DNA of 64,000 nucleotides, taken from assembly GCF_008642375.1 (NCBI RefSeq), contig NZ_CP029194.1, forward strand, positions 5,759,001 to 5,823,000. Reading direction: 5' to 3'. The first letter of the stretch is position 1. Every line of letters begins with the position of its first letter. Source of the stretch: Streptomyces venezuelae. GTDB lineage: Bacteria > Actinomycetota > Actinomycetes > Streptomycetales > Streptomycetaceae. A program made the position numbers and the translations under genes. The notes beneath the pieces were generated by a model. It was not told where the DNA came from and ran no database searches. It saw only the letters and a program-made list of their open reading frames with translations. Shown here piece by piece: positions 54,972 to 59,608 of this stretch.

Positions 54972-56170
54972 CGCCGCTCCTTCAGCACGTACGCCACGAG
55001 CAGCGCCGTCGCCGTCAGCGGATAGACGGCGGACAGCAGCATCTGACCCGCGTTCTGGTCCAGTTCGGGACGGCCCGGGTCGTGCGGCACCCACCACAGC
55101 GCGAACGACGTGAAGGCCAGGGCCACCACACCCGTCACCGGCCACGCGCGCGTGGCGCGGTCCGCGAGCAGGATCAGCAGGGGCACGCACCAGACCCAGT
55201 GGTGGGACCAGGAGATCGGGCTGATCATCAGCGCCGTGAACGCGCAGATGATCACAGCCGCCGCCTTGTCGCCGCGGACAGCGGCCCGTACTGCGAGGTA
55301 CATCGCCGCACCGCCCATGACGGCCGCGGTCAGCAGCCACCAGATGCCCGGGGAATCCGTGTGCATCAGGCGGGCCAGGACGCCGCTGATGGACTGGTTG
55401 GCGGTCTCCTCGGCGAAGCCGACCCGGCCGGTCGCGAAGAGCGTCTCCGTCCAGAACTTCTTCGAGTCCGCCGGCAGGGCCAGCGCCACGGTCAGTGTCG
55501 TCGCCAGGAACACCCCGGTCGCCGTCACGCCCGTGCGGAGCCACTGGTTCCAGCGGTGGTCCCGGCGCCACAGGAGCAAGCCGGCGGCGAGCAGGAGGAC
55601 CACGAAGAGCCCCGGTGTGAGCTTCACCGCTGTCGCGAGACCGATCCCGAGCCCGGCCCAGCGGCTGCCCTCGCGGCGCGTGAGGTCCCAGAGGACCGCC
55701 ACCGCTATGAGCAGGTTGATCTGGCCGTACCGCAGTGTCGTCCACACCGGCTCGCACCAGACCACGGCGGCGGCGACGAACAGTGTCGTACGCCACAGGT
55801 CCGTCCGGGACAGTGCGGGGCGGACCAGTTGGAGCGACAGCTGGACCAGGGCGATCACCAGGAGCAGGTTCCCCGCGGTCGTGAGCGTCCGCATCAGCGG
55901 GACGCTCACCAGGGTCAGCGGGAGGAACAGCACCGCCGCGAACGGCGGATAGGTCATGGCGAGGTTCGCCGAGGTGGCGCGCATCGCGTAGAGGTCCCCG
56001 CCGGCCCGCAGTGTCTCGCCCTCGGCCCGGTAGACCATCACGTCGAGCATGTTCACGTGGGCGAGGCGTTGCGCCACCCAGAAGGACGCGAAGGAGAGCA
56101 GGCAGACCGCCGCGGCGGTGGCCAGGGGCCACGGCCGGGCGCGGGTTTTCGAGAGCACGGAGACGGACAC
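54950..56170 (-). CDS. DUF2029 / GT87-type polyprenyl-phosphate-sugar glycosyltransferase
   Basis: A 406-residue polytopic protein with about eleven membrane helices. The first outer loop has LDVMVYRAEGETLRAGGDLY, with the catalytic-type Asp of GT-C enzymes, then YPPFAAVLFLPL. AVKLTPGLF and SPISWSHHWVW are typical of GT87 (PimE-like) proteins, which use polyprenyl-phosphate mannose outside the membrane. It may decorate lipomannan-like glycolipids or wall polymers. The start is the GTG at 56168-56170. It is convergent with the zinc-ribbon gene. Confidence 0.88.
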   Translation of the reverse strand: MSVSVLSKTRARPWPLATAAAVCLLSFASFWVAQRLAHVNMLDVMVYRAEGETLRAGGDLYAMRATSANLAMTYPPFAAVLFLPLTLVSVPLMRTLTTAGNLLLVIALVQLSLQLVRPALSRTDLWRTTLFVAAAVVWCEPVWTTLRYGQINLLIAVAVLWDLTRREGSRWAGLGIGLATAVKLTPGLFVVLLLAAGLLLWRRDHRWNQWLRTGVTATGVFLATTLTVALALPADSKKFWTETLFATGRVGFAEETANQSISGVLARLMHTDSPGIWWLLTAAVMGGAAMYLAVRAAVRGDKAAAVIICAFTALMISPISWSHHWVWCVPLLILLADRATRAWPVTGVVALAFTSFALWWVPHDPGRPELDQNAGQMLLSAVYPLTATALLVAYVLKERRQALAKE

Positions 56171-56216
56171 AGTCGGCGACCCTACCGGGCAGGTCGGAGG
56201 GGCTCGGGGAATCGAT

Positions 56217-56246
56217 TTGGAGATCTGCCCGGGAGCCGGTTAATGT
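56217..56246 (+). promoter_or_regulatory. Promoter of the second tRNA-Ala
   Basis: TTGGAG (56217-56222), an 18-nt spacer and TAATGT (56241-56246), about 50 nt before the tRNA. Confidence 0.5.
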
Positions 56247-56295
56247 TCTGTCTGTCGCCGCGAGGGAAACCGAAACGGAGACGGGAAAGCAGCAA

Positions 56296-56368
56296 GGGGC
56301 TATAGCTCAGTTGGTAGAGCGCCTGCATGGCATGCAGGAGGTCAGGAGTTCAATTCTCCTTAGCTCCA
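56296..56368 (+). tRNA. tRNA-Ala (anticodon GGC), copy 2
   Basis: Identical in all 73 positions to the tRNA at 52091-52163, including the G3-U70 pair. Identity continues for 1 nt upstream and 3 nt downstream and then stops. Confidence 0.97.
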
Positions 56369-56375
56369 CAGAAAG

Positions 56376-56408
56376 GAAGCGGGTCACCCGGATCGGGTGG
56401 CCCGCTTC
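56376..56408 (+). terminator. Terminator of the second tRNA-Ala
   Basis: A 15-bp stem GAAGCGGGTCACCCG/CGGGTGGCCCGCTTC with one G-U pair and a 3-nt loop, followed by TTCGTTTG. Its sequence is unrelated to the terminator of copy 1. Confidence 0.75.
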
Positions 56409-56426
56409 TTCGTTTGCACATGCTCC

Positions 56427-56474
56427 TCGTGTGCTCGTACGTCTCGTGTGCCCGTACTCCTCGTGTGCCCGTAC
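56427..56474 (+). repeat. Three 17-bp tandem repeats upstream of the leuS leader
   Basis: TCGTGTGCYCGTAC occurs at 56427-56440, 56444-56457 and 56461-56474. The period is exactly 17 bp with 3-nt spacers. It lies between the tRNA terminator and the leader-peptide promoter. Confidence 0.75.
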
Positions 56475-56530
56475 GTCTTCCTCGTCCGCTCGCGCGTGGA
56501 ACGTCGGTGCGGCCCGCGCGGGCCCTGCGG

Positions 56531-56536
56531 TACCCT
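56531..56536 (+). promoter_or_regulatory. -10 box of the leuS leader transcript
   Basis: TACCCT lies exactly 6 nt before the ATG of the Leu-rich leader peptide, so the leader would be translated from the first nucleotide of the mRNA. Confidence 0.6.
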
Positions 56537-56542
56537 GGCGCC

Positions 56543-56581
56543 ATGCGTGCCGTACGCCTCCTGCTTACCGAGCCGCGCTGA
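56543..56581 (+). CDS. Leucine leader peptide of leuS (candidate)
   Basis: A 12-codon frame, MRAVRLLLTEPR, with three consecutive leucine codons CTC-CTG-CTT (56558-56566); CTT is rare in Streptomyces. The ATG lies 6 nt after a -10 box, the terminator-like hairpin at 56642-56666 follows 60 nt downstream, and then leuS. This is the layout of ribosome-mediated attenuation: when charged leucyl-tRNA is scarce, stalling at the Leu codons would allow readthrough into leuS. An antiterminator fold is not obvious to me. Confidence 0.65.
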   Translation: MRAVRLLLTEPR

Positions 56582-56641
56582 TCAGTCCCGGCGCATGACC
56601 GTCGCCCCGTCGACCGTCATCCCGCCGGAGTCGGCGCGGCG

Positions 56642-56666
56642 TCCCCTCCTGTGCGAGGGGATTTTT
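56642..56666 (+). terminator. Attenuator hairpin in the leuS leader
   Basis: A 7-bp stem TCCCCTC/GAGGGGA with loop CTGTGC is followed directly by TTTTT (56662-56666). A run of T after a GC stem is very unusual in this GC-rich DNA, which marks an intrinsic terminator 56 nt before the leuS start codon. Confidence 0.7.
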
Positions 56667-56722
56667 CATTTCGCGGCAGTTCGTGGCAGTGGGCAGAGAC
56701 GATCGATGGAGCTTCAAGGACC

Positions 56723-59608
<2,886 letters not shown>

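Follow-up and report, generated by a model that had tools for sequence, protein, structure and literature searches.

The question raised by the leuL-leuS region of Streptomyces venezuelae is what a short reading frame with a run of leucine codons is doing directly in front of a gene for leucyl-tRNA synthetase. We favor the answer that the region is a predicted ribosome-mediated transcription attenuator of leuS, a reading to which we give a probability of about 0.87, and judging from the sequence features set out below leuS is very probably turned up on leucine shortage. The gene predicted to be regulated, leuS, occupies 56723..59608 on the + strand of the window (the whole stretch of DNA that was analysed, 64,000 nucleotides, from an 8.56 Mb genome assembled as a single contig). 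It was recognised from its open frame and from 80 relatives in named Streptomyces genomes, which are 85-99% identical; the leuS genes of S. narbonensis and S. venezuelae share 99% identity.

The features of the leader lie on the same + strand. A -10 promoter box, TACCCT (56531..56536), which belongs to the conserved motif CTGCGGTANCCT and would give rise to a leaderless leader transcript, is separated by the six bases GGCGCC from the ATG of leuL at 56543; no -35 box is recognisable upstream of TACCCT in the leuL promoter. The predicted leader ORF itself (56543..56581) reads ATG CGT GCC GTA CGC CTC CTG CTT ACC GAG CCG CGC TGA and encodes MRAVRLLLTEPR*, with the TGA stop (56579-56581) following 12 codons. 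The predicted regulatory Leu codons, CTC CTG CTT, are found at 56558..56566 and are followed by a 5-nt spacer (56567..56571) and by the 5' arm of a helix that we call P1 (GCCGCGCTGAT, 56572..56582), which in the S. venezuelae genome contains the leader stop codon. Nested within P1 is a second hairpin, P2 (CCGGCG at 56588..56593 and CGCCGG at 56623..56628), after which come the 3' arm of P1 (GTCGGCGCGGC, 56630..56640) and an intrinsic terminator, GTCCCCTC-CTGTGC-GAGGGGAT with its T run (56641..56666). The stem-loop proper of the terminator spans 56641-56662 and the T run 56662-56666, and the hairpin was recovered in a terminator scan against 0.2 expected in shuffles. AAGGA at 56716..56720 is, from its position relative to the ATG at 56723, the probable Shine-Dalgarno sequence of leuS. 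Thus the coordinates given in a preliminary description for TACCCT and its 6-nt gap, for the 12-codon frame with three Leu codons and for the compact hairpin with a T run ahead of leuS proved exact.

Further upstream is a gene for tRNA-Ala (GGC) at 56296-56369. Within 56296-56412 the tRNA is followed by a strong hairpin and a T-rich tail (GCGGGTCACCCGGATCGGGTGGCCCGC TTCTTCG), which makes readthrough into leuS from the tRNA promoter unlikely. A 17-bp unit, CTCGTGTGCCCGTACGT, occurs three times in tandem (86% matches) at 56426-56478, in the stretch that separates the tRNA-Ala terminator from the leuL promoter.

The leuL-leuS element is not new: its prediction dates from 2005, and in S. lividans its leader was given the name leuL2 in 2021. 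In Seliverstov et al. 2005 (PMC1262725), classical attenuators were predicted before leuS of S. coelicolor and S. avermitilis, each with a leader ORF, an antiterminator and a terminator. In a reannotation of S. lividans TK24 based on RNA-seq (2021; PMC8079986), leuL2, encoding MRAVRLLLSEPR, is described as leaderless and upstream of leuS, with a hairpin and uridines downstream of the leader. The S. venezuelae peptide differs from MRAVRLLLSEPR by T for S at residue 9, and its locus has the make-up of the leuL2 type: a 12-codon frame of the form MRAVRLLLxxPR, a -10 box 6 nt before the ATG, a hairpin with a U run and leuS directly downstream. A leaderless leader ORF in front of a synthetase gene, earlier described as notable, is therefore not a new find. 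On the other hand, the expectation that the mRNA does not begin downstream of 56543 agrees with the 5'-end RNA-seq from which the orthologous S. lividans leader was reported to be leaderless (PMC8079986). In the literature searched, no experiment was found that tests whether leucine controls leuS, and no paper combines leuS with Streptomyces Term-seq; the main text of the S. clavuligerus Term-seq paper names no tRNA synthetase, and a paper on attenuation in M. tuberculosis does not mention leuS.

Leu codons alone are not proof of mechanism in Streptomyces, because, in work cited in PMC1262725, altering codons of the S. coelicolor ilvB leader made no difference and the outcome of altering leuA leader codons was inconsistent with classical attenuation. 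Of 150 Streptomyces genomes, 148 gave a BLAST match to the region, as did 16 of the 17 Streptomycetaceae genera sampled; a covariance model, R1, added the missing genus (17/17) and also recovered other family members that were re-tested after absent or weak BLAST matches. Two Streptomyces genomes had no match by BLAST or R1, and one of these is 79% complete. From 220 family loci 194 distinct elements were extracted. Within the class, R1 matched 115 of 297 sampled genomes and 51 of 114 genera, in about 25 families by hand count from the table; in the sample of the phylum it matched only one genome outside the class, and this single copy, from another class, likewise precedes leuS. The model is specific, as it gave only one match in the S. 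venezuelae genome up to E = 1. Of 40 distant copies, 39 lie directly upstream of a LeuS-encoding frame on the same strand, the remaining one being at a contig end. One genome (G454) has two copies of the element (L241 and L264), each before a leuS-like frame of differing similarity, which would stem either from contamination or from a second leuS.

Every one of the 194 distinct family elements has two or more Leu codons in a row, and a Leu-Leu run occurs in 39 of 40 distant leaders (predicted ORFs). The run closes with CTT in 190/194 family elements and in 36 of the 39 distant elements scored, and CTT is indeed rare, as had been stated: among the 1473 Leu codons of the 29 long coding-like frames in the window it appears 12 times (0.8%), and among the 75 of leuS itself it never does. 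Equally constant is the distance from this codon to P1. Counted from the first base of the final Leu codon, the P1 core, GCCGC, begins 8 nt further on in 193/194 family elements, the sole exception having one additional Leu codon after CTT, and the identical offset from CTT (CTC in two) was found in all 39 distant elements scored; the intervening 5-nt spacer is thus of fixed length in both sets. The start codon follows TANNNT by 6 nt in 188 and by 7 nt in 6 of the 194 family elements, and the -10 box is 6-7 nt from the start in 39/39 distant elements scored. Apart from the Leu run and the spacings nothing is constant: the N-terminal and C-terminal residues of the leader vary, and the leader stop is located anywhere from -2 to +26 nt relative to the start of P1 in the distant set. 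This points to codon position rather than peptide sequence as what matters; the feature conserved is the distance from Leu codon to helix and not the peptide.

Two groups of distant leaders deserve mention. In five elements (L251, L261, L267, L273 and L275) the leader stop is a TAG at the start of P1, so that P1 lies almost entirely beyond the ORF; among these predicted leaders the stop position is free and the CTT-to-P1 distance is fixed. In another (L276, 1-811) the leader contains QQQR and no Leu run, and its lone Leu codon is a CTT at the invariant distance from P1; the specificity of this leader is perhaps shifting, or the leader is perhaps in decay.

Three helices, P1, P2 and the terminator, have covariation support. 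P1, GCCGCGCUGAU paired with AUCGGCGCGGC (GUCGGCGCGGC in S. venezuelae), is present together with the terminator in all 194 distinct family elements, which, with the BLAST result, takes the observation well past what chance would give. In the family alignment of the three helices 93% of cells are paired and 59 double-sided changes were counted against 20 in shuffles, with none of 500 shuffles as high and with slid controls far lower. In the distant set 96% are paired and there are 91 double-sided changes against 28.5 in shuffles (0/500 as high); because this alignment was fitted to the covariance model it is biased towards the structure, although slid controls were nevertheless low. The base of P1 (GCCGC/GCGGC) is nearly constant, and covariation is seen in the distal pairs of the helix, as in GCCGCAUCGGC/GCCGAUGCGGC and GCCGUGC/GCACGGC. 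P2 was also found by folding, and all six of its pairs show double-sided changes in the family and class sets; its length varies, and it is missing in lineages with a linker of 21-24 nt. The upstream regions of leuS in relatives, within the family and beyond, therefore bear out the preliminary description with respect to conserved Leu codons and to hairpins with compensatory changes. Two other candidate structures were rejected: (i) a hairpin at the extreme 5' end of the leader (positions 3-15), whose covariation was not above that of shuffles; and (ii) a longer P1 reaching outward to the CCCC arm of the terminator by way of a GAG/GGG codon, which on inspection by eye was not conserved.

The preferred reading, that leuL-leuS is an attenuator, is supported by the conserved Leu codons, the covarying helices, the fixed geometry and the leaderless report from S. 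lividans. The element combines a short predicted leader ORF in which cognate codons follow one another, an intrinsic terminator between this ORF and the structural gene, and a helix, P1, whose fixed offset and covariation suggest sensitivity to ribosome position; that a ribosome would mask it is suggested by the geometry. From these parts and spacings we infer the following course of termination, leucine response and P1 action. RNA polymerase would start at or beside the leuL ATG, and a 70S ribosome would initiate on the leaderless message. With charged Leu-tRNA ample, the ribosome would pass CTC-CTG-CTT and arrive at the leader stop, where it would cover the 5' arm of P1 (56572-56582) and block this helix; the terminator at 56641-56666 would then fold and transcription would end before leuS. 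With charged Leu-tRNA scarce, the ribosome would stall on a Leu codon, leaving P1, which encloses P2, free to form. P1 could form during such a stall because it starts 5 nt past the last Leu codon, approximately at the mRNA entry of a ribosome whose A site is occupied by that codon. Finally, P1, being rigid and adjacent, would prevent the terminator from closing at its base within RNA polymerase, and leuS would be transcribed.

This last step differs from the textbook overlap, in that P1 ends before the terminator stem and both co-fold. P1 and the terminator have no base in common; the end of P1 is 2 nt from the CCCC arm of the terminator in 184/194 family elements and 1 or 3 nt from it in the remainder. 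When the S. venezuelae region was folded the two formed together, and in folding with the 5' end varied the pairing probability of the terminator was approximately 1 in every simulated ribosome state, even without P1. Folding with the 5' end at various ribosome positions revealed no base-pairing antiterminator, duplex energies showed that upstream segments of the real sequences pair worse with each terminator arm than shuffled ones do, and the textbook form, in which antiterminator and terminator are mutually exclusive through shared bases, was not seen. The pairing of GCCGCGC (56572-56578) with GCGCGGC (56634-56640), offered earlier as an alternative fold, is thus real in that it corresponds to P1 and is conserved and covarying, but it does not compete with the terminator by base pairing, and the doubt expressed at the time on this very point was right. 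The leuL-leuS element is accordingly attenuator-like in its working and non-textbook in its layout. Adjacency is proposed for P1 because the remaining geometry is that of an attenuator, and the reasoning is that a rigid upstream helix would be unable to enter the exit channel of RNA polymerase, so that the base of the terminator stem could not close. For this step alone we put the chances at slightly below even. The wider proposal is tentative and on balance somewhat doubtful: a class-wide, non-textbook leuS attenuator in which P1 abuts the terminator (at 1-3 nt in Streptomycetaceae) and never overlaps it, blocks closure of the stem base in the exit channel, and is coupled to leucine through the ruler CTT-N5-GCCGC.

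The main alternative is that the locus is an attenuator in which the role of P1 is reversed. P1 would stack on the terminator and strengthen termination, and readthrough would come from another state, for example one in which a ribosome stalled on the last CTT holds P1 open. Stacking is favoured by the thermodynamic compatibility of the two helices and by their near contiguity, and conservation is strongest at the last CTT, the codon nearest to P1. With 5 nt between A-site codon and helix, the spacer falls at the lower end of the range known for frameshift stimulators, and P1 would sit at the mRNA entrance of the ribosome during decoding of CTT, where it would have to open for the next codon. 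Against stacking, this typical geometry would put P1 at the edge of the CTT-decoding ribosome and not inside it, and without P1 the terminator still folds at a probability near 1. We consider this arrangement unlikely; it and adjacency make opposite predictions for a mutant in the leader start codon.

Still less probable, in our view, is a constitutive premature terminator behind a translated leader, which would set a low basal level of leuS with no sensing of leucine. The stability of the terminator in all modelled states would fit, as would the ilvB result mentioned above, but the constant Leu run, the rare CTT in 190/194 elements and the 8-nt distance to a covarying helix, kept exactly in many families, would be left unexplained. 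That the leader peptide is itself active, as an arrest peptide or in trans, is very improbable despite its high identity within Streptomyces, as other families keep the Leu run only (VATHFLLLGRPR, MDLAARLLLAGPR, MRSGLLLA) and the terminal Pro-Arg is dictated by P1 bases and gone where the stop comes earlier; the arrest-peptide reading was rejected because the residues flanking the Leu run vary.

With regard to known systems, the S. venezuelae copy is the ortholog of the leuS attenuators of S. coelicolor and S. avermitilis (PMC1262725) and of S. lividans leuL2 (PMC8079986), with the same gene, leader ORF, and hairpin with U run. With the classical attenuators (trp and leu of E. coli, pheST for a synthetase, trp of Streptomyces and Corynebacterium) it shares a leader ORF with cognate codons, a ribosome-sensitive helix and a terminator before the structural gene. 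It differs from them in that leuL is leaderless, as reported for other Streptomyces leaders too, and in that its ribosome-sensitive helix is beside the terminator whereas the classical one shares the 5' arm of the terminator. The LEU element of leuA in Actinobacteria likewise has a Leu-rich leader peptide, occurs in the same organisms and is leaderless in S. lividans, but according to PMC1262725 and PMC8079986 it has a proposed pseudoknot and no typical terminator. T-box riboswitches also control aminoacyl-tRNA synthetase genes by tRNA charging; they bind tRNA directly, whereas leuL-leuS has a predicted translated leader instead. No T-box was matched in Rfam up to E = 5 in 55500-58000, where the upstream tRNA-Ala alone was significant and no leader family appeared.

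What is added here, and is absent from the published accounts covered, is the breadth of the distribution, the fixed ruler and a helix that does not overlap the terminator, although an earlier comparative study, Lopatovskaya et al. (2010), cited in PMC8269248, may include part of the distribution. Because the Rfam scan yielded no matching family, R1, with its high specificity, could serve for annotation of the element. With two rigid spacings and a helix that stays clear of the terminator, the element offers a clean system in which to study how a hairpin under ribosome control might prevent termination while leaving the bases of the terminator alone. Finally, control of a synthetase by a leaderless leader peptide is indicated to be old and widespread in Actinomycetes; in Firmicutes, T-boxes would often be found at synthetase genes.
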